DNA from: a virus
Strand: one strand, 5' to 3'
IMG/VR virus record: IMGVR_UViG_3300043446_005369
Span: 20,376-84,375 of that record
DNA length: 64,000 nucleotides
Shown here: positions 3,925-32,540 of the stretch, one piece after another
Layout: the number at the start of each line of letters is the position of its first letter
Numbering within the stretch: the stretch's first letter is position 1
Translations under genes and position numbers: made by a program
Notes under the pieces: model-generated
What the model saw: only the letters and a program-made list of their open reading frames with translations
Told to the model about the DNA's origin: nothing
Database searches by the model: none

Positions 3925-4592
3925 TATTCGTTAAATTTACTATCTGGCTCTAATGCAATCCAATATGAAAGATTATACTTTTCGTTTGTAAATTTAGAGT
4001 ATAGTTTAGAAGAAACTACGACATCATATGATCCAGAGATGATTTTAATGTGTTCTATTTTAAAGTTAAACACAAATACATCATTAGTTTGGCCAACTAC
4101 TATAGAATATTCATTCGAGGTATCATTATTTTTATCACGAACCACCAAACGAATAACTCCGTTTTCTCCAATTGCAGAAAGATCTGGAAGTTGATAGATG
4201 GAAGATGCCTTAATCAATTTGTCTAAAGAACTACTATCGAGCTGAAAACAAACATCCTGAGAAGGCAATTTAATCTCTTTATCTGGAGGTGTTACAATTA
4301 CATTTGGATCTGCATAAAAATATTTTGCTCGCCAGTTGCCCTCCCGAATCGTAACATACGAATCATTTGTAAAATCCAAATCAGGACTTTGATGTAGGCT
4401 TAAACCATTTAGGAATTCACTTAAATCATAAATCGCAAATTGACGAGGGAAATCTTCCTCAATTTGTGCTTCAGCCAAAATATTTTTTGCAACTGAAATA
4501 GTTCGAAGATGATTTCCATTTTTTACCAAAATTGAATTATTAATTTTAGAAAAATTCTTAAGAATGCTTAGTGTTTTATCAGATAATTTCAT
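3924..4592 (-). CDS. 45: DNA polymerase sliding clamp gp45
   Basis: A 222-aa protein of the gp45/PCNA-like clamp family; T4 gp45 is 228 aa. It starts MKLSDKTLSILKNFSKINNSILVKNG, has the IYDLSEFLNGLSL segment, and ends YWIALEPDSKF as in T4-like clamps. The homotrimer tethers DNA polymerase and also works with gp55 as a mobile co-activator of late transcription. It lies upstream of the metallopeptidase-like gene and the clamp loader genes. Confidence 0.96.
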   Translation of the reverse strand: MKLSDKTLSILKNFSKINNSILVKNGNHLRTISVAKNILAEAQIEEDFPRQFAIYDLSEFLNGLSLHQSPDLDFTNDSYVTIREGNWRAKYFYADPNVIVTPPDKEIKLPSQDVCFQLDSSSLDKLIKASSIYQLPDLSAIGENGVIRLVVRDKNNDTSNEYSIVVGQTNDVFVFNFKIEHIKIISGSYDVVVSSKLYSKFTNEKYNLSYWIALEPDSKFNE

Positions 4593-4602
4593 TTTATTTC
4601 AA

Positions 4603-4968
4603 TCAACGGAACTCATTTAGGCCATTGTCTTTGCGAGTGTAGTGCCCATCAAAGTGAAGAAGAAGCATAGCATAATGAATTACTTTAAGAAGATCCCTTT
4701 TGTTTCTTCCATCCTTGTCACCATAACGACTCCCATACTTTAGAATATTGGCTTGACAAAATTTTACTGCCAAATCTTTAGAAGCCATTAAATCGATTGT
4801 TTGAATATTTTTATACTCTTCATTATGACCACAATAATGACTAGTATAAGTTTCAGTTACATAATTTTCAATATCTTTGATGATTTTATCTTCATTATAC
4901 TTCCAAAGATGATTTGTTTTTTCTGATTCGTGTGAGTTCATGCGTAAATTGTTTTCATAATTTTTCAT
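4603..4968 (-). CDS. DUF3310-like protein (121 aa)
   Basis: The C-terminal half contains AVKFCQANILKYGSRYGDKDG and RDLLKVIHYAMLLLHFDGHY. This is the helical motif of the DUF3310 family, which includes the T7 gp1.7 nucleotide-kinase-associated protein. The function here is unknown. A longer frame exists with a TTG start at 4998, but that TTG lies inside the terminator hairpin of the upstream gene, so the ATG at 4966-4968 (MKNYENN) is chosen. A second ATG at 4939-4941 (MNSHESEK) is also possible, and no strong ribosome binding site decides between them. Confidence 0.72.
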   Translation of the reverse strand: MKNYENNLRMNSHESEKTNHLWKYNEDKIIKDIENYVTETYTSHYCGHNEEYKNIQTIDLMASKDLAVKFCQANILKYGSRYGDKDGRNKRDLLKVIHYAMLLLHFDGHYTRKDNGLNEFR

Positions 4969-4969
4969 A

Positions 4970-4997
4970 AAGAAAGGAGAGGCGTAGATCCTCTCCA
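4970..4997 (-). terminator. Intrinsic terminator after the CobS-like gene
   Basis: On the minus strand a perfect 7-bp stem GGAGAGG/CCTCTCC with a 7-base loop is followed by TTTCTTT. It begins about 6 bases past the stop at 5004 and abuts the start of the DUF3310-like gene. Confidence 0.8.
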
Positions 4998-5003
4998 AGA
5001 TTA

Positions 5004-6134
5004 TCAGAATGGGATCTGGGTGTCAATAGGTGTGTTTTCTTTTGTTTCTGCTTGCTGATTCATTTTAAAATCAACATCAATTTTATCGTATAACTCAAGA
5101 AATGATTGTTTCGTTTCATCATCAAAACGATTAATACAAATCTGAATTGCCTTCGATTTATCTTTAAAGATACTATAAGCTTTGATAATATGAACTAGAC
5201 GACGAGTACTAATGATTTCTTCAATTCCTCCATCATAAAAGGTTTTACGAATTACATCCCCCCAATCCACCAATCTCTTGCAGAAATCTTCGTCAGTAAC
5301 TTCCAATTGATTAGCAACTGCATTGAGAATTTTTTGTTCTGTGGAAACTGAAGGATACTCTTGTTCTAGAGTTACTGGAAACCTCTCTAGAAACGCTTCA
5401 TTCAGAACATTAGTTCCAATAAAACGACCATCATCAGATCCCTTACCCTTTGTATTTGCAGTTGCAATTACATTAAATCCTTGAGCAGGTTTTACGAATG
5501 TGCCAATTTTTTTGAGGAAAACACCTTTACCCTCTAAAATAGATTGAAGACATAGAATTTTATTTGATGCGAGATCAATTTCATCTAGAAGTAGAATTGC
5601 ACCCCTTTTGAGAGCTTCAATTACAGGACCATCATGCCATGCAGTTTCTCCATTTACTAGACGAAACCCACCGATCAGATCATCTTCATCGGTTTCAATT
5701 GTAATATTGACTCGAATGAGTTCCCTCTTTAATTGGGCACATGCTTGCTCGACGCTAAACGTTTTTCCGTTACCGGAAAGACCAGTAATAAATGTAGGAT
5801 AAAAAATACCAGATTGAATAATCTTTTTAATATAAGAAAAACTACCAAATGGCACAAATAGTTTATCTTTCGCTGGAATTAAATTTTGTTCATTCGTTGG
5901 AAGAACAGAAAGTGAATGGTATGAACGTTCAATTTCTTCAATTTTCTCAGAAGTTACTTCAAGATTCCAACGCCCACGGTCAGTTTTATATGGTTCGAGT
6001 TTACGTGTTAGTGTGGGATAAGATACCCCTTTAGATGCACAATATCCCCTAATGTCACCAGAAGTAATATCCGTTCCAAAAAGAGAAATGAGTTCATTTA
6101 CTAGCTGATTATCATTCATTGGACTATTGGTCAT
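5004..6134 (-). CDS. cobS: CobS/MoxR-like AAA+ ATPase
   Basis: A 376-aa protein with an N-terminal helical region (1-60) followed by an AAA+ ATPase domain. Walker A is GLSGNGKT at 118-125, Walker B is LLLDEID at 181-187, and NVIATANTKGKG supplies sensor 1. It matches the protein called CobS in marine T4-like phages. True CobS is the AAA+ subunit of aerobic cobaltochelatase and works with CobT, which carries a VWA domain. A VWA protein with an added HExxH site lies upstream at 7108-9288, so an AAA+/VWA pair acting as a remodelling machine is at least as likely as a cobalamin role. Terminators flank it on both sides. Confidence 0.88.
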   Translation of the reverse strand: MTNSPMNDNQLVNELISLFGTDITSGDIRGYCASKGVSYPTLTRKLEPYKTDRGRWNLEVTSEKIEEIERSYHSLSVLPTNEQNLIPAKDKLFVPFGSFSYIKKIIQSGIFYPTFITGLSGNGKTFSVEQACAQLKRELIRVNITIETDEDDLIGGFRLVNGETAWHDGPVIEALKRGAILLLDEIDLASNKILCLQSILEGKGVFLKKIGTFVKPAQGFNVIATANTKGKGSDDGRFIGTNVLNEAFLERFPVTLEQEYPSVSTEQKILNAVANQLEVTDEDFCKRLVDWGDVIRKTFYDGGIEEIISTRRLVHIIKAYSIFKDKSKAIQICINRFDDETKQSFLELYDKIDVDFKMNQQAETKENTPIDTQIPF

Positions 6135-14380: not shown

Positions 14381-15808
14381 TCAACGATTTCCTCGATATT
14401 GAATAGCATCCTTAATGCTGTTATATTCTGCACTACTTCCTGACAAATGACCATCATCGACTACCATAACTTCATCATACCCACTTCTTTCGATTAACTT
14501 CGTTTTTACTTCTAATTGTTTCTTTTCTTTTTGTATTCTTCTTAAGAATGCATAATGTATGATTTGTGTAAAATATGCAAAGGGGTTTCTAGATTTTTCT
14601 GGATCAAAATTATGAATGTATTGTATACAATTTCCAGTAAGAAGACCATTACCCAAAACAAAAGAATTAGTTTCTGGTTCTTCTAAACAAAATACCTCAT
14701 CTTCACCATACTCTTTGATGTATCTCACCTTTGGTTGATAGTGTTCGGGTTTCGCTAAAGTAATTACATTTAAAGGTTTTCCATTTTTGAATGAGTCATC
14801 ATTTTCTGTTCTTTCAATAATTCTATGACTAATTATATGAAAACCAGCATAAGATGAATAATAAACTAACCATTCTGCAGCATCGGAATTACTAGTACTA
14901 ATTTGTAATCTATTTGTTGAGGTTGTTTTATATCCATCAGCTAACCACCATCCATATATAAATCCAGCGATATATTCTGGGTCAGTTGTAAATGGCAGAT
15001 CTTTAACTAGAGGGTATTTTCCAATATAAAAACAAGGATCACCATTAGCATGTTTTGGGTATGTGGAAGTATATCCAAAATCTGTTAATAATGCAACTAT
15101 TTCATCCTTAACCGAATCTTGTTTACATACCCGGATTCGTGCATATTTATTACCCTGCGATACTACCAAAGGATCCCCATAGGTTACGGATTTATGTCCA
15201 GAACCATCACCGTAAAGAATCCCGTGCAAAACTGCATTCTTATCATAAGTATTTTCTATAGGAGCATTCTGAAGACAATCACCTATTTTTAAATTAGTAA
15301 TGACTTCATTTTTATAATATAAACACCTATTTTTATTTCTCCTAGAGGAAACAAACCATCGATGATTCTCTGTGCATATAACTTTTTGATATACATCTTT
15401 CTCAGGAACATTGAATGATGAAAATCCATATTCATAAAGCATTTGAGTTCCATAAGATTTAACTAATGCTTCTCTCCATTTACCGTCAATACACCTAATT
15501 GTAACTTTCTTATTTACTATCTTTTCGATTTCTATTGGCCCATATTCAATTGTAGGAATAATTGTGGATCTATGAAAACAGTTTTCAACTCCATCAGAAA
15601 TCATATCATCCCTAAACATGTAATTCACAAAATTTGGCTTATAGGACAAATGAGTTGCAATCTTTAAAAAACATTCTCCAAGATAATTCGTAATCTTTGG
15701 CTTAGGTAATTTCTTTTCTTTTGCTTCTTGTAGCTTTGATCTATAAACAATTAATGCTTCTAGTAGCTCTTTATTGTTCACATAATGTTCTGATTTTTTC
15801 TTGGTCAT
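14381..15808 (-). CDS. 55: Late-transcription sigma factor gp55, interrupted by an intein
   Basis: The extein halves read MTKKKSEHYVNNKELLEALI to MISDGVEN, then CIQYIHNFDPEKSRNPFAYFTQIIHYAFLRRIQKEKKQ, the signature of T4-like gp55, which directs host RNA polymerase to TATAAATA-type late promoters. Between them is a 317-residue intein. Without it the protein would be 158 aa, slightly shorter than T4 gp55 (185 aa). An ATG 15 codons upstream (15853) also exists, but it abuts a GGGGG/CCCCC hairpin, so the family-typical MTKKK start is used. The reading frame is intact throughout, so splicing is needed for a normal sigma factor. Confidence 0.93.
   Translation of the reverse strand: MTKKKSEHYVNNKELLEALIVYRSKLQEAKEKKLPKPKITNYLGECFLKIATHLSYKPNFVNYMFRDDMISDGVENCFHRSTIIPTIEYGPIEIEKIVNKKVTIRCIDGKWREALVKSYGTQMLYEYGFSSFNVPEKDVYQKVICTENHRWFVSSRRNKNRCLYYKNEVITNLKIGDCLQNAPIENTYDKNAVLHGILYGDGSGHKSVTYGDPLVVSQGNKYARIRVCKQDSVKDEIVALLTDFGYTSTYPKHANGDPCFYIGKYPLVKDLPFTTDPEYIAGFIYGWWLADGYKTTSTNRLQISTSNSDAAEWLVYYSSYAGFHIISHRIIERTENDDSFKNGKPLNVITLAKPEHYQPKVRYIKEYGEDEVFCLEEPETNSFVLGNGLLTGNCIQYIHNFDPEKSRNPFAYFTQIIHYAFLRRIQKEKKQLEVKTKLIERSGYDEVMVVDDGHLSGSSAEYNSIKDAIQYRGNR
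14630..15580 (-). other. Intein in gp55 (317 aa) with LAGLIDADG-type endonuclease domain
   Basis: Residues 77-393 of gp55. The intein starts with Cys (CFHRSTIIPT) and ends GNGLLTGN before extein Cys. Block B is TENHRW, with Thr three before His. The endonuclease core shows two LAGLIDADG-like motifs, LHGILYGDGSG and IAGFIYGWWLADG. Block F is EVFCLEE. Trp follows the block B His by two residues, Cys occupies the usual Asp site of block F, and Thr precedes Gly-Asn in block G. That is the same W/C/T triplet that defines class 3 inteins, yet Cys1 is present. The penultimate residue is Gly instead of His. Splicing is inferred from intact motifs and frame. Confidence 0.93.
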
Positions 15809-15853
15809 TGAACCTATTACTCTACGCCTGAATGTCCGTAAATTGTAGCACAT

Positions 15854-19471: not shown

Positions 19472-20884
19472 TCACATTAGATTTTGTACTTTAACTCTTC
19501 TGTAGTATACGTTAGAGTTTGCAGTAATGTTATCAGGTGAAGTAGCAGCAGTAGCACCCTTCGCAAATGGATTCGCAACAATACCATAACGAGTCTTAAA
19601 TCCAATTTTTGGTTGGAAGGTTTGCTCACCAACTGCACGTACCATCTGTAGAGGTACGTATGGGCAATAGAAGAGACCTGCATCATAAGGAGAGGCACCC
19701 TTATAACCCATTACATAGAATTGATTAGCAGAAACGTTTGCGGAATATGGGTCAATGTATACACGATACTTACCCTGAAGAATTCCAGCAAAAGTATTGC
19801 CAGTATCATCTACTTGAAGATTTGAGTTTAGAGCTGGGGTATAATCCAGAACTCCGGCCATAGTTAGTGCAGAAGCAACGTCGGCAGAGCAAAGGATCAT
19901 ATTACCCTTTCCTCTACGAGTTTGCTGAGCGATAGCGTTGGCATCACGCTCAATCTGGAAAATTAGACCTTTAAACTTCTCAACAGACCAACGGCCATTG
20001 GAGTCAACATCAAGGTCAAAAGTACCAGCAGTTGCGGTATTAACTTGAGCACCAGGAACAGCAATCTTATAAATGGTACGAATGATCTCACGGTTAATCT
20101 CAGCAAGAATCTCAGTGGAGAGAATATTTGCGAGTTCCGCTTCAGCATTCAGACCATGAATAGCCTTTAGGTCCTGAGCAAGCTCAAGTGAGTACTCAGC
20201 TTTTAAAGCACGGCTCCTTGCAGTAACGGTAAGCTTCTCGATTGAGAAAGCCATTTCGTTAAAGTAAGTTCCAGAACCACCATCACCGAGAGCTTCAGAA
20301 TCGGCAGTAACCATGCCTTCACCAACATTATAAGCCTGTTGATTAGCATTGGTTGCATCAAGAATTGAAGGATTGCTGCCTGAAACTGGTGATGTAGTAC
20401 CAAGACCAACAGCACCGTCAATAAATCCACGATCAAGATTACGTCCTTTATTTTGACCGGAGAAGGAAGAATCAGCTTCATTATAGAAAGCTTCAGTTCC
20501 AGTCATGTTATTATAACGGGAACGCATTGCAAAAATTAGACCTGTGGGGCCGTTCATTGGCTGAACACCACAAAGATCATATGCAATGAGATTAGGCATT
20601 GAACGGCGAATCAGAGAGATTAGCACTGGATCAAAACCTGCAACTGGAGTTCCAGTTGTATTTGAAGCACTACCAGTATATCCACCAGTTACACCAGCGG
20701 AACTAAAGCTTTGAGTAGGAGCTTCATATAGGAAAGAGCGTTCTTCACGTAGTTCTCTTTCTTGGTTCTCTAACAGGATAGCGGTTACGGCTCTACGGTG
20801 TGAGTCTGAAATGCGATCCATTCCTTGATAATCAAGAATTGGTGCCCACTTCTCCTGCAGATACTCTGCGTTATACATCTGCAT
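19472..20884 (-). CDS. 23: Major capsid protein gp23
   Basis: A 470-aa T4-type major capsid protein forming the hexamers of the head. Residues 1-54 are the helical prohead segment (LQEKWAPILDYQGMDRISDSHRR). FLYE at 51-54 before APTQ is the likely gp21 cleavage point. The mature part has RRSMPNLIAYDLCGVQPMNGPTGLIFAMRSRY and the C-terminal PFAKG region. Length is typical of marine relatives. The start has AAGAGG at nine-base spacing. A strong terminator follows, as expected for a highly expressed gene. Confidence 0.98.
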   Translation of the reverse strand: MQMYNAEYLQEKWAPILDYQGMDRISDSHRRAVTAILLENQERELREERSFLYEAPTQSFSSAGVTGGYTGSASNTTGTPVAGFDPVLISLIRRSMPNLIAYDLCGVQPMNGPTGLIFAMRSRYNNMTGTEAFYNEADSSFSGQNKGRNLDRGFIDGAVGLGTTSPVSGSNPSILDATNANQQAYNVGEGMVTADSEALGDGGSGTYFNEMAFSIEKLTVTARSRALKAEYSLELAQDLKAIHGLNAEAELANILSTEILAEINREIIRTIYKIAVPGAQVNTATAGTFDLDVDSNGRWSVEKFKGLIFQIERDANAIAQQTRRGKGNMILCSADVASALTMAGVLDYTPALNSNLQVDDTGNTFAGILQGKYRVYIDPYSANVSANQFYVMGYKGASPYDAGLFYCPYVPLQMVRAVGEQTFQPKIGFKTRYGIVANPFAKGATAATSPDNITANSNVYYRRVKVQNLM

Positions 20885-23519: not shown

Positions 23520-23527
23520 TATTTATA
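23520..23527 (-). promoter_or_regulatory. Late promoter TATAAATA overlapping the gp20 stop
   Basis: On the minus strand the gp20 coding end GGKI is followed by TAA, which is the TAA inside TATAAATA. It lies 25 bases before the gp67-like ATG at 23495. Confidence 0.65.
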
Positions 23528-26471
23528 TTTTTCCACCTTTAGGATTGGGAATTTCCACCGCAGAGGTATTCATAGATGGTTCAATTGGTGTTTCTCCGGT
23601 TGGGGATTGTTCTACTCCTTGAGGGACACCACCTTGTTGATCCGTCGCAATGGGGTTTCCAAATTCATCTACTGGTTGATTTGGATTTGGTAAAATACCT
23701 TTATTAATTTCATCTTCAATTTGCATATCAATTTCAATGATTTCGGAATCAGTTTGACGCAGAATTTTTTTACGAATGTATTCTGTGGAATAATATTTCC
23801 CGATATATGGCTCAATTGTAGTTGCAAGTGTTAAACGATTTGTCATCAATTCTGCTTCCTTTAATTCGGCAAAATGATTATCATAAAGAAAATCATACTG
23901 AATATGATCTGCCATTTTCTCCCAATCTTCAGGAGAAACGATGTTTTTAAGAATTAGTTGACTTCTCAGAATATCATTAAAAACATTTGCGAATTTTTTT
24001 CTTAATCTTCCAACAAATTTGGAGAACATTAATTCGTCACGAAGAATTTCTGAAGATCTACCTAGATTAAATCCATCTCCACTACCAGCAATTCTAGATT
24101 CAGGAACTCCAAGTGCTCTATAAAGTTTTTTCTGAAAATATTGAATATCGCTGAGTTCACCTAAGTTTTGACCGCCTGGAAGAGTTGTAATTTCTGTTCC
24201 TCTTCCACCTTCTCTTCTAGGAAGCCAGAAATCTTCTAGCATACTCATGAATTTGCGATCATCTCTTATTTCACCTGTGTTTGCGTCATATACCAATTTA
24301 TTCCTATAACGAGACATAACTTCTTTTAAGTATTGCTCAGCTTTTACTTTAGGAAGATTGCCGACATCAATGTAAAAAATTCTACGTTCAGGAGCCCTCG
24401 AATTATGAACTACAATACCGTTCGCCACAAAATTATGCTTTTCATGAGAAACTTCAATATCATAAACATCCTCGACTTCTGCAGTTTCCACAGAAATAAT
24501 TTTTTCAAATTTTGGAAGTTCATATTCACTTAAATACAATTCCCAGCATTGAGTTTCTGGAATTAATCTTGTCTTATTTTCCTCACCTATAATTCTTGTT
24601 TGTTCTGGTCGGATTCTATGGCGAATTTGTCCGGAACAAAGGCCAATTGAAGTCCAGATTTCTTTAATATCTTCAATAAGCTGTTTATTTGCTAAAGAAA
24701 TTTCACATGAAAATCCATTTACTAGATCTCTATAATGTCCATCTGCATCTAGAAGTCCAAGAATAAATTCTCTTTTAATGTTATTTGGGGATGTAAATAC
24801 CCAATCTGGAATTCTCTTAATTTTAGCTCCATTTTTAAATCCAAGCTTTTGCAGAAGTTCCGAAGCAAGCGTGTTGCTTGAATGGTAATTACTATATTTT
24901 CTATTAGATTTTGACCTCGTACAATTACCAAAAAACTTTTCCATCAACTTACTATAATATAAGTTTTGAATCTCATCTTCACCTTCTGCGAATGTTACAC
25001 CATATTTTGTAATACATCCATCACCAATTAAAAATCCAAATAGTCTTGCAAATTCTTCATCGATATATTCTGGAAGATTTAGTTGATTTGTACCCCAACC
25101 ATATAGTTTTTCCTCGAATTTTGCATCTTTAAGTACTTCAATTTCTTCTTGAAGTACTGCAACATCAGAAGATTCTAATGACTGAGATCCATATAAGAAA
25201 TTTTGAATACTACTCCTATTGATATTAGTTTTTTCTGAAATTTGTTGTATAACTTTTTCTTTATTGTCAATTTTATAGGAGGACCACAAGAAAGTATCTT
25301 TTAGTTTATAGCATTTTTCTCGAACTTCTGGAAATGCAGTTTGAGTAGAGCATTCTTCTGGTCTAATGTAAGTTAAACTATGTCTTTTTGGTTGAAGATC
25401 TTTGATAGGAACGTACTTCACGTCTTTAGTCTCATTATCATAAACGAGAACTGGGTGAGTATCGGTTCCTACAACACTATGATGCTTAGACTGAACTCTA
25501 AAAGACTGTTTAGTTCCAGTTAACCACTTATTAGATACAGTTGTTTCAACTAATTTATCAACACGATTATCATAACTATAAACTTTATCTCCAACTTGAA
25601 TATCTTTAATGTATGAATAACCTTTGTCTGTTTTTACTCGGGTATCTCCAATTAAGCAAAGGCGATAAATTACCAAAGAATCTTCAATCATTCTAAGTTG
25701 ATTGAGAGCCTTAATTGCTTTATGTAAATAAGATAAAATAGTTCCTTTATTGCGATCTACAAGCCCCGAAGTGCAATATGTAATAGAGTCTTTTGCAATT
25801 TTAACTCCCTTTTTGGATCCTCCGGAAATAGTTCCACTTGGAAAATTAGGAGTCGGAGTATACACAAAATACTCTTCAATTTCAGGAAAGTTATATTGTT
25901 GAGCATCAGTTCCATCATTTAGTCTAAAATTCTTATACTTATCCGCACCATTCGAAGTTCTTTTCTCTTGACGCACATGCTTCATTTTCATTGGATCAAT
26001 ATATCTCAATTCCTGAATTCCTTTCTCAGGATTTTTTTGATCAATGACTTTTAAATAGAATAATCTTCCATCCACATACCAATTCCTAAAAATTTCATGG
26101 CATTTTTTATCAAAATCCATGATTTCTTTAATATATTTAAATTCTATTCGAATTAGTTCTTTTAATCTATCACTCGCATTTAAATTTGATAGTTCAATTT
26201 CAACTGGAGAATCATATAGGTCACTGACAATAGCTTCATTGACTACACTTTCAATTGCACCTTCACATTCTGGATGTAAAGCCATTTCTCGGTATCTTCG
26301 AATCAAGTCGTACTCAGTTCGATAAACACCTTCAATATCTACATATTGACCATAAAATCCAGATTGAATAAAATGATCAACCCCGTCCTCATTATTTGCG
26401 GGAACGGGGGAAACTATAGATTTAGATTTTTTATCATTATCATCAATTGAAAAACCAAAAAGTTTTGCCAT
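23523..26471 (-). CDS. 20: Portal vertex protein gp20, interrupted by an intein
   Basis: A 982-aa frame containing a 563-aa portal protein split by a 419-aa intein. Portal features: FIQSGFYGQYVDIEGVYRTEYDLIRRYREMALHPECEGAIESVVNEAIV near the N-terminus, then LVIYRL joined after splicing to SRAPERRIFYIDVGNLPK, and GFNLGRSSEILRDELMFSKFVGRLRKKF. The portal dodecamer is the entry for DNA and the attachment site for the neck. The extein length is near T4 gp20 (524 aa). A CTAAATA element overlaps the gp19 stop upstream. Splicing is required for a functional portal. Confidence 0.97.
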   Translation of the reverse strand: MAKLFGFSIDDNDKKSKSIVSPVPANNEDGVDHFIQSGFYGQYVDIEGVYRTEYDLIRRYREMALHPECEGAIESVVNEAIVSDLYDSPVEIELSNLNASDRLKELIRIEFKYIKEIMDFDKKCHEIFRNWYVDGRLFYLKVIDQKNPEKGIQELRYIDPMKMKHVRQEKRTSNGADKYKNFRLNDGTDAQQYNFPEIEEYFVYTPTPNFPSGTISGGSKKGVKIAKDSITYCTSGLVDRNKGTILSYLHKAIKALNQLRMIEDSLVIYRLCLIGDTRVKTDKGYSYIKDIQVGDKVYSYDNRVDKLVETTVSNKWLTGTKQSFRVQSKHHSVVGTDTHPVLVYDNETKDVKYVPIKDLQPKRHSLTYIRPEECSTQTAFPEVREKCYKLKDTFLWSSYKIDNKEKVIQQISEKTNINRSSIQNFLYGSQSLESSDVAVLQEEIEVLKDAKFEEKLYGWGTNQLNLPEYIDEEFARLFGFLIGDGCITKYGVTFAEGEDEIQNLYYSKLMEKFFGNCTRSKSNRKYSNYHSSNTLASELLQKLGFKNGAKIKRIPDWVFTSPNNIKREFILGLLDADGHYRDLVNGFSCEISLANKQLIEDIKEIWTSIGLCSGQIRHRIRPEQTRIIGEENKTRLIPETQCWELYLSEYELPKFEKIISVETAEVEDVYDIEVSHEKHNFVANGIVVHNSRAPERRIFYIDVGNLPKVKAEQYLKEVMSRYRNKLVYDANTGEIRDDRKFMSMLEDFWLPRREGGRGTEITTLPGGQNLGELSDIQYFQKKLYRALGVPESRIAGSGDGFNLGRSSEILRDELMFSKFVGRLRKKFANVFNDILRSQLILKNIVSPEDWEKMADHIQYDFLYDNHFAELKEAELMTNRLTLATTIEPYIGKYYSTEYIRKKILRQTDSEIIEIDMQIEDEINKGILPNPNQPVDEFGNPIATDQQGGVPQGVEQSPTGETPIEPSMNTSAVEIPNPKGGKI
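24402..25658 (-). other. Intein in gp20 (419 aa) with LAGLIDADG-type endonuclease domain
   Basis: Residues 272-690. It starts CLIGDTRVKTDKGY (Cys1) and ends NFVANGIVVHN before extein Ser. Block B is GTDTHPV with the TxxH motif; block F is DVYDIEVSHEKHNF, with the usual Asp; His-Asn end the intein. Two LAGLIDADG motifs are visible, ARLFGFLIGDG and FILGLLDADG. All features fit a standard class 1 intein. The insertion lies between YRL and SRAPERR, a strongly conserved portal segment. Confidence 0.96.
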
Positions 26472-29816: not shown

Positions 29817-32540
29817 TTATTGATATTCCCACATGTAGCTCCATTCGGAAGAAACATCACCATATTCATCTAAATTCCATACTTCCAGTGATCCTTTTTG
29901 ATTATTTTGATTTGCAAAAACCCACATGTCTCCAGTTTCTTTTTCAATATCAATTCCAGATAGTTCTTCTAGACCATCAGAAATAAATCCAAAAGGAGAC
30001 ATGTCTTGATCAATTTGGTTTTTTTGTTCCTCATAAATTCTTTTTCTGACATCATTATCTGTCATTTCTTTGAAATATTCTTGAGCAACAAGCCAAGCAA
30101 ATATCACAAGACACATTGCTAGATCATCATTACAACCTTCTTCAGCTTCAAATGAATTATGTTTTTGAATAAATGTGGTTAACTCTGCAATGATGTCATA
30201 ATCATTAATCATTAATTTATCATCTTCAATCAGCAATTTTAAGTTAGAGCAACCTAACTTTTTAACTGCAGATGTCATTCTTACACCCATTTGCGATTTT
30301 TTCCCACTAAAACCTGAACCAACAATCTGCCCAGCTCGACCTCTCATAGAGCACATAAGCATATTATCATATTCAAGATCATAATGCAAAATACTAGCAA
30401 CTTGCTCACCAATATCATTAACTTCTGCTAAGACCCAAGCATTGTTATAACCTTTTGCTACTTTTTCAATAATACTTGGAAAAAGCATAGGTTTGATTTC
30501 ATTATTTTTATATTTTGCTACTACTTTATATGGAAAATTGGTAATATCAAATACAATAAATGAAGAATAGTCATTTCCAATTCCTCTCGCAACATCGACA
30601 GTAATTAGATAATTATTTTCTTCTTTTGGATTTTCATATACATCTAATCCCTTTTCCCCTCTTTTAACTGGATCATCATAAGTTAAAATTTTAAGTTTAC
30701 TTGGATTGATTAATGTTCCTACAGATCCCAGGAATTCGCAAAGGTGCTCAGCCCTAAACTGTTCTTCACTAGTATTTGCAATTGTCTCTGCTTTCCACTT
30801 TTCATCTCTACCTGGAACTTCTGACCAATGAACTTCAGTAGCAACAAATTGATTTTTATTTCTTTCAGCATCGTGCCACATTCTATAGAAGTGGTTCATG
30901 CCTTTTGGTGTTGAAACGACAATAACTTTTGTTGATTTACCTGAAGAAATTGTAGGATATACAGAAGCAAAGAAATCGTCTGCAATGTGATTCGGAACGA
31001 ATGCAAATTCGTCAAGGAAGATAATATTAAATGTCATACCACGAACTGCAGATGCAGAAGTAGATGCTGCAATAATCTTAGAACCGTTTTCTAATTCTAG
31101 AGATCCTTTGTTCCACGATATAATACCCTGTTGCATCCATTTTGGTAGATTCTCATAAGATAATTGAAGTCTACTTAAAAGTTCTCTGGAAGTAGATGCC
31201 TTGTTTGCCAAAATTCCAATGTTTACGTTGTCATTAAAAACAACATAATGCAATAGATAAGATACTACGGTAGTTGAATTGTGAGTAGGTATAAATGTTT
31301 TTCCGCACAAAAATAAATGATCATCACTATCTACTTGGAGGCAACAAACTGGAACACTTTCAACTTTTTCTATTTTATGTATATAAATTCGTTTATTTTG
31401 TGGCCTTTCGTTTTTATTAAAATTAATTAATTTTATTTTTCTAGGAAGATTAAATATTTTTTCTTTACTCGCAAAACGAATCGTATAATACCAACAATTA
31501 TTAATTAATTTCCTAGATACTCTAGATTTTATTCCCAATGAAGAGAGTAATTCTATAACTTGAATAATGAGTTCGTAGTTTTTTTGATAAAATTCAAATG
31601 ATTGTGTTTTTGTTATTGACCCATCAGTGTCCATCAAACCACGAAGTAATTCCATTCTTTGTTCGACCGATGAACGAAGATATAATTCTGGAATATGCTT
31701 GTGTTTTAATAAATTATTATCTTTTAATTTTTTTTGCAAATTTTTACACTTAAATGTAATACAATTATTATTTTCTCTTTCATATTCAACATCAATTTTA
31801 GTTTTATAAAATTCATAATCATCTTTATGTGAAATAATTCTTCCATCCGAAGAAAATCCATCACCTAACCAAACACCAAGGAGGTATGGATCAATCGGAA
31901 GATTTTTATTTTCTCCCACAAAAGGATTTGTATAATCGATATATAATGATCCGATTACGCCCCTTCCTCTTTTATTGTTTATTTTTTTTAAATATTTTGA
32001 ATAAATCTCATTTGTTGTTAATATTTTTTTTCCAGTTCTCCAATATACCGAATTTACTTCCCATAAATGATCACCATCAGCAATAATTTCTTCCCCATTA
32101 TCAAAATATATTTTATAACATTGATGATTAAACATCGTTTCTGTTTTAAAAGTAACAGAAACAGGATTGCCGCTTGGTGATAGTATTTTATCTCCAACTT
32201 TAACTTCCTCCATTGTTGTCCAACCAGCTGGAGTTGGAATAGGAGTATCCAATGCCAAAGCCTTTCCAACCTGTCTAGGCATCTTGCAAATATTAAATCT
32301 GTTTTTATGGAAATTTGTAATCAGTTTTTCTTGAAATGGCCATAAGTTAAATTTAACTAAGCCATCATCTACGTTTACGATTTTAATATAATTTTTAGCA
32401 AAATATACAGGATCTTCCTTACACTTCAAAAATTCAATGACTTGCTCTTCAGTCCATTGAATAGGGGTATTTGCTCTCTTTAAATTTGGATTGGAGAGAT
32501 AAGCATCACCTTGTTTTAATTGGATATCTTCAATTGCCAT
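29817..32540 (-). CDS. 17: Terminase large subunit gp17, interrupted by an intein
   Basis: A 907-aa frame coding for a 579-aa packaging ATPase/nuclease split by a 328-aa intein. The ATPase Walker A is PRQVGK joined to STTVV after splicing; Walker B is NIIFLDEFAF. The nuclease domain has VDVARGIGNDYSSF and a later GCNDDLAMCLVIFAW. T4 gp17 is 610 aa. It translocates DNA through the gp20 portal and cuts concatemers. The intein interrupts the P-loop between Lys and Ser, so the unspliced protein cannot bind ATP normally. Confidence 0.97.
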   Translation of the reverse strand: MAIEDIQLKQGDAYLSNPNLKRANTPIQWTEEQVIEFLKCKEDPVYFAKNYIKIVNVDDGLVKFNLWPFQEKLITNFHKNRFNICKMPRQVGKALALDTPIPTPAGWTTMEEVKVGDKILSPSGNPVSVTFKTETMFNHQCYKIYFDNGEEIIADGDHLWEVNSVYWRTGKKILTTNEIYSKYLKKINNKRGRGVIGSLYIDYTNPFVGENKNLPIDPYLLGVWLGDGFSSDGRIISHKDDYEFYKTKIDVEYERENNNCITFKCKNLQKKLKDNNLLKHKHIPELYLRSSVEQRMELLRGLMDTDGSITKTQSFEFYQKNYELIIQVIELLSSLGIKSRVSRKLINNCWYYTIRFASKEKIFNLPRKIKLINFNKNERPQNKRIYIHKIEKVESVPVCCLQVDSDDHLFLCGKTFIPTHNSTTVVSYLLHYVVFNDNVNIGILANKASTSRELLSRLQLSYENLPKWMQQGIISWNKGSLELENGSKIIAASTSASAVRGMTFNIIFLDEFAFVPNHIADDFFASVYPTISSGKSTKVIVVSTPKGMNHFYRMWHDAERNKNQFVATEVHWSEVPGRDEKWKAETIANTSEEQFRAEHLCEFLGSVGTLINPSKLKILTYDDPVKRGEKGLDVYENPKEENNYLITVDVARGIGNDYSSFIVFDITNFPYKVVAKYKNNEIKPMLFPSIIEKVAKGYNNAWVLAEVNDIGEQVASILHYDLEYDNMLMCSMRGRAGQIVGSGFSGKKSQMGVRMTSAVKKLGCSNLKLLIEDDKLMINDYDIIAELTTFIQKHNSFEAEEGCNDDLAMCLVIFAWLVAQEYFKEMTDNDVRKRIYEEQKNQIDQDMSPFGFISDGLEELSGIDIEKETGDMWVFANQNNQKGSLEVWNLDEYGDVSSEWSYMWEYQ
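31278..32261 (-). other. Class 3-type intein in gp17 (328 aa) with LAGLIDADG-type endonuclease domain
   Basis: Residues 94-421. It starts with Ala (ALALDTPIPT), not Cys or Ser, and ends FIPTHN before extein Ser. Block B is GDHLW: Trp lies two after the His, and the usual Thr three before it is absent. Block F is PVCCLQV, with Cys at the normal Asp position. Block G ends Thr-His-Asn. Trp/Cys/Thr at these sites is the signature of class 3 inteins, which use the block F Cys as first nucleophile. Two LAGLIDADG motifs are present, LLGVWLGDG and LLRGLMDTDG. Confidence 0.94.

Follow-up and report, generated by a model that had tools for sequence, protein, structure and literature searches.

A predicted class 3 intein with a LAGLIDADG homing endonuclease in the P-loop of the T4-type large terminase of a cyanomyovirus-like phage

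The gp17 gene of a T4-like phage raised the question of what kind of element splits the P-loop of its packaging ATPase, by which route that element would leave the protein, and whether it is mobile. The window, that is, the whole stretch of 64,000 nucleotides analysed, ran from base 20376 to the last base, 84375, of a virus record of 84,375 bases. Genes for the capsid, portal, sheath and terminase were T4-like, and the closest annotated terminases were those of Synechococcus and Prochlorococcus phages. An uninterrupted minus-strand frame (29817-32540; all features below lie on this strand) encoded one gp17/TerL precursor of 907 aa, consisting of 579 aa of extein and 328 aa of intein. The outer parts were those of a T4-type large terminase (Pfam Terminase_6N, 3e-22, and Terminase_6C, 5e-12; PHROGs, terminase large subunit). 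The intein corresponded to TerL residues 94-421 (31278-32261) and lay in frame within the Walker A P-loop, between the PRQVGK ending the N-extein (93 aa; 32262-32540) and the STT of the C-extein (486 aa; 29817-31277). An intact frame with a 328-residue insert splitting PRQVGK/STT had been claimed in a first-pass annotation, and this claim was exact. On sequence evidence, the insert is very probably a full-length class 3 intein with a LAGLIDADG homing endonuclease, placed after the Walker A Lys of a T4-type TerL in a cyanomyovirus-like phage, splicing by the class 3 route and spreading by homing.

The intein ran from Ala1 (32259-32261), which is no nucleophile, to Asn328, and was followed by Ser as the +1 residue (31275-31277), the predicted nucleophile of the C-extein and, once spliced, the GK[S/T] residue of the P-loop. 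Block B possessed DxxH, Asp62 (32076-32078) to His65 (B:10; 32067-32069), instead of TxxH, as well as Trp67 (B:12; 32061-32063); block F was PVCCLQV (residues 304-310; 31332-31352), with Cys307 (F:4; 31341-31343) as the putative initiating nucleophile; Thr326 (G:5; 31284-31286) was followed by His327-Asn328 of block G (31278-31283). Trp67, Cys307 and Thr326 make up the WCT set. The Ala start, the Trp two residues after the block B His, the Cys of PVCCLQV and the Thr before His-Asn, all named in the first-pass annotation, were located at residues 1, 67, 307 and 326, respectively.

In a phmmer search, the best PDB match of the intein was the class 3 intein DnaBi1 of M. smegmatis (6bs8, E = 4e-26), followed by M. 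chimaera DnaB1. The alignment with 6bs8 was gap-free over residues 1-69, His65 and Trp67 having the same numbers in both, and Cys307 fell on the catalytic Cys118, Thr326 on Thr137 and Asn328 on Asn139 (catalytic residue numbers of DnaBi1 from PMC6195587 and PMC5222942). A placement of the Cys, Trp or Thr outside blocks F, B and G, which would speak against class 3, was looked for and was not seen, the three residues aligning onto C118, W67 and T137 of DnaBi1. DxxH in place of TxxH in block B has been described as typical of class 3 inteins (PMC6195587). No intein model exceeded its cut-off in the Pfam/NCBIfam profile search of TerL (Pfam Intein_splicing, 12.7 versus 35.8 bits required), and the classification therefore rests on PDB matches and relatives.

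A scan of IMG/VR with the intein gave 97 related stretches, 80 of which were kept, and 77 of these spanned residues 1 (or 2) to 328. All 77 full-length relatives, which had the same junction and came from other contigs, kept PTHN, the Cys of VPVxC and, in block B, the His and the Trp; in alignment A2, D62, H65, W67, C307, T326, H327 and N328 were invariant. The +1 residue was Ser in 50 relatives and Thr in 27. Residue 1 was Ala in 68, Ser in 6 and Pro in 3, a variation expected if this residue is not the nucleophile; Pro at residue 1 cannot be one, and thus represents a natural mutant that a class 1 intein would not survive. Cys306 (31344-31346), beside Cys307, was found in the window copy only, the 77 relatives all having Ala, and may alter the redox behaviour of the window copy. 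In an intein tree of 113 columns only, the intein grouped with those of M. smegmatis DnaBi1, Brevibacterium phage Rousseau DnaB (a class 3 intein in a P-loop), Krischvirus and mycobacteriophages and with other WCT inteins (31 rows, 96/91), and the same 113 columns placed the RaK2-like inteins, the mini-inteins (see below) and the Vibrio 12VC501 intein outside, beside long class 1 branches.

The intein has Trp at B:12, Cys at F:4 and Thr at G:5 with no need for a nucleophile at residue 1, together with the block B His, the C-terminal Asn and a +1 nucleophile. Every testable sequence feature that defines class 3 was found, including the block B DxxH, in agreement with the class first assigned, and the class 3 route is strongly supported as the predicted splicing route of this TerL intein. 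The class 1 nucleophile (Cys, Ser or Thr at residue 1) was absent, Ala1 taking its place. Were splicing to follow the class 2 route, the +1 Ser would attack the N-junction directly for want of a residue-1 nucleophile and Cys307 would be structural, for which Ala1 and a +1 nucleophile are both there; however, class 2 inteins have been described only in KlbA, with attack by Cys+1, whereas the host here is TerL, the +1 residue is Ser and Cys307 is present. As Trp67, Cys307 and Thr326 are also jointly invariant and the homology lies with class 3 DnaB inteins, this route is highly improbable. There is likewise hardly any chance that the element is a degenerate, non-splicing insert or an assembly artefact, since the frame is intact, the motif set full, dN/dS near 0.1 and the 77 relatives from other contigs; moreover, an insert at this point of the P-loop that failed to splice would wreck an essential ATPase.

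A second IMG/VR scan, with the C-extein alone, showed that among the 80 nearest terminases 72 were empty, with an intact PRQxGK/[ST] (slashes denote junctions), and 8 were occupied. These natural empty alleles at the same junction fix the splice boundaries and, with the E value of 4e-26 and the 77 full-length homologues sharing the junction, put the match far above chance. At least 18 gains or losses of the intein were counted on a tree of 118 extein sequences, at least 14 of them forced by supported branches; about half of these sequences had been fetched via the intein, which biases the occupied proportion, not the interleaving. One allele pair, L018 (occupied) and L117 (empty), was 96% identical and differed by the intein. 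Seven differences between the two fell within the 60 bp just upstream of the insertion, mainly in the 24 bases nearest to it, and only one of the seven altered an amino acid; the preceding 180 bp had none (patch versus rest of the gene, p = 0.0015, the region having been chosen after looking). This patch fits a short co-conversion tract following homing. In a different pair, L018 and L005, synonymous divergence was 0.30 in the endonuclease region versus 0.04 in the splicing region (about 6x), which suggests recombination within the intein.

Both LAGLIDADG motifs possessed the catalytic Asp, LLGVWLGDG with Asp134 (31857-31883) and LRGLMDTDG with Asp213 (31620-31646), and matched Pfam LAGLIDADG_3 (3e-9). 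An AlphaFold model of the intein, predicted from 28 family sequences (window and IMG/VR rows only), had a mean pLDDT of 83 and a pTM of 0.84, the last 12 residues being poor and the C-terminal residues of the model (block G and C-extein) having pLDDT below 50. In Foldseek searches with this model, PI-SceI and other intein-endonucleases matched over most of the length, and the Hint part matched the class 3 DnaB structures; I-DmoI was a further match. Purifying selection was indicated by a dN/dS ratio of about 0.10-0.15 for the endonuclease region, a value as low as that for the splicing region. If the endonuclease were dead and the splicing domain alone active, the patchiness would stem from ordinary phage recombination and loss. 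Phage genes recombine freely, and one relative (L058) has Gly for the second LAGLIDADG Asp and retains its splicing residues; nevertheless, the window copy retains Asp134 and Asp213, selection on the endonuclease region is as strong as on the splicing region, and the L018/L117 patch adjoins the insertion, so that a dead endonuclease is unlikely. The prediction of a working LAGLIDADG endonuclease in the window intein is strongly, albeit indirectly, supported by the two Asp residues, the dN/dS near 0.1, the very patchy occupancy of the site and the mostly synonymous patch in one allele pair.

Cys48 (32118-32120) takes the position of the redox Cys48 of M. smegmatis DnaBi1, in which stalling of splicing by a disulfide involving this residue has been reported, and was invariant in the IMG/VR alignment (C53 of A2). 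By analogy, a Cys48-Cys307 disulfide might form in oxidising conditions, stall splicing and leave TerL off, which would be compatible with class 3 splicing. Such a switch is doubtful, because all substitutions of DnaBi1 Cys48 abolished splicing, meaning that conservation can be structural, Met occurs at position 48 in RaK2 and Kae01, and no benefit for a lytic phage is evident. A further idea, put forward only as speculation, is that the Cys48/Cys307 pair might be a redox gate on packaging in a phage whose host cells produce oxygen, with oxidation driven by light holding TerL in an inactive, unspliced form until reducing conditions return; if true, the intein would be a regulator, more than a parasite.

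Varied degrees of likeness were found between the class 3 intein of the window and known elements. The TerL intein of Synechococcus phage B23 (MN695335, gp267, annotated merely as terminase) shares the gene, the PRQxGK/ junction, the WCT set and 66% identity over 328 residues, but has Thr at +1, Ala for Cys306 and a PRQCGK P-loop. M. smegmatis DnaBi1 (6bs8) and M. chimaera DnaB1 (6rix/6riy) resemble it in the ALALDTP/ALALYTP start, DxxH, W67, WCT and Cys48, and DnaBi1 also in the P-loop insertion and +1 Ser, whereas both are short, lie in DnaB and are without an endonuclease. The TerL inteins of Krischvirus (phage kvi), RaK2 and fENko-Kae01 have WCT and the RQxGK/T junction of T4-type gp17, as in the window, although identity is about 37-41% and RaK2 and Kae01 have Met48 and Cys62. 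Mycobacteriophage TerL1-c, -d and -e are likewise class 3 and in the TerL ATPase domain, but their hosts are Terminase_1 proteins and their insertion sites differ; in those phages it is TerL1-a that occupies the Lys/Thr site of the P-loop (PMC5050341). In the annotation of S-SRM01 (L085, MW015081), the terminase at 501-2222 is labelled tail sheath and the next gene terminase, the names apparently having been swapped.

TerL inteins and P-loop inteins of class 3 are of a known, published kind, and the novelty implied at first was overstated: class 3 TerL inteins had been found in mycobacteriophages (PMC5050341), and Hint and LAGLIDADG domains had been noted in RaK2 TerL (PMC5259590). By 2020, nr contained 1701 class 3 inteins, 82.5% with LAGLIDADG motifs (PMC7891396). 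A literature search for cyanophage class 3 TerL inteins found no paper.

In several relatives (L078/L079, L091, L093 and L082/L101), two predicted class 3 inteins were observed in one P-loop in the arrangement PRQ/mini/CGK/full/STT, separated by three extein residues (CGK); in L078, they are located at 3998-4438 and 4448-5428. The mini-intein is 147 aa long and possesses Pro1, the W, C and T residues and a penultimate Met. It occurs alone in L092 and L094-L100, and the full intein alone in B23 and L059. The tandem copies are non-identical and come from several metagenomes, which argues against assembly error. These apparent tandem class 3 inteins in the relatives are new; the literature on "tandem inteins" yielded no paper, and that on "adjacent inteins" only MCM inteins in Haloferax. 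A further TerL intein, with a Cys start and a Gln end (VVS/C...FLGHQ/TP), was observed about 700 nt downstream in L020, L024, L029, L072 and L078 (5795-7111 in the last), which, together with the tandem pair, makes three inteins in the L078 TerL.

The window phage has three inteins, in gp17, gp20 and gp55. That of the gp20 portal protein (24402-25658, minus strand, in ORF 23523-26471) is an ordinary class 1 intein with LAGLIDADG (VIYRL/C...VVHN/SRAPERR), and was the sole match when the whole record was searched with PF14890. The intein of the late sigma factor gp55 (14630-15580, minus strand, in ORF 14381-15853) has Cys1, TxxH and the full W-C-T set, with Trp at B:12, Cys at F:4 and Thr at G:5, and ends in TGN/C. 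Its Cys1, TxxH and W-C-T were invariant in 15 relatives (L194-L208) from at least three host genes (gp55, the gene of a clamp-loader-like ATPase and ribonucleotide reductase-like genes, read from the sequence by eye with no family search), and the same set of residues recurred in distant phage reductase inteins. Judged from these motifs, the gp55 intein may possess two nucleophiles and resemble the proposed class 3 progenitor, and the apparent combination of Cys1 with the full W-C-T triplet is what is new in the window. In 2011, Tori and Perler reportedly dealt with some inteins in which motifs of class 1 and class 3 are combined, and are said to have extended the class 3 definition. A Cys at F:4 is known from class 1 inteins too, and those that have it are polyphyletic (PMC3196547).

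For the class 3 intein of gp17, the sequence, the exact junctions, the homology to a solved class 3 intein, the conservation, the empty sites and the selection were observed; each chemical step and the DNA cleavage we infer, the splicing steps by analogy with the homologous DnaB1 inteins, whose structures and mutants have been described. Cys307, with help of His65 and Thr326, would attack the bond between Lys and Ala1, forming a branched thioester at block F, from which the N-extein would be transferred to Ser+1 (block G branch); Asn328 would then cyclise, and an O-to-N shift would join PRQVGK to STT and restore the P-loop, so that the packaging motor would be active only after splicing. Most likely, gp17 copies that lack the intein are cut by the endonuclease at the insertion codon, and the element would spread by double-strand-break repair.

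With these findings, the known range of class 3 inteins with predicted intact endonucleases comes to include the packaging ATPase, an essential protein, of T4-like cyanophages. Phages of E. coli and Klebsiella share the site, and DnaB P-loops have one of the same kind, which fits the proposed spread of class 3 inteins by phages. The family provides natural controls in occupied and empty alleles that are 96% identical, Pro1 variants and tandem class 3 inteins, and the gp55 intein, holding the residues expected of a class 3 progenitor, may bear on how class 3 arose.
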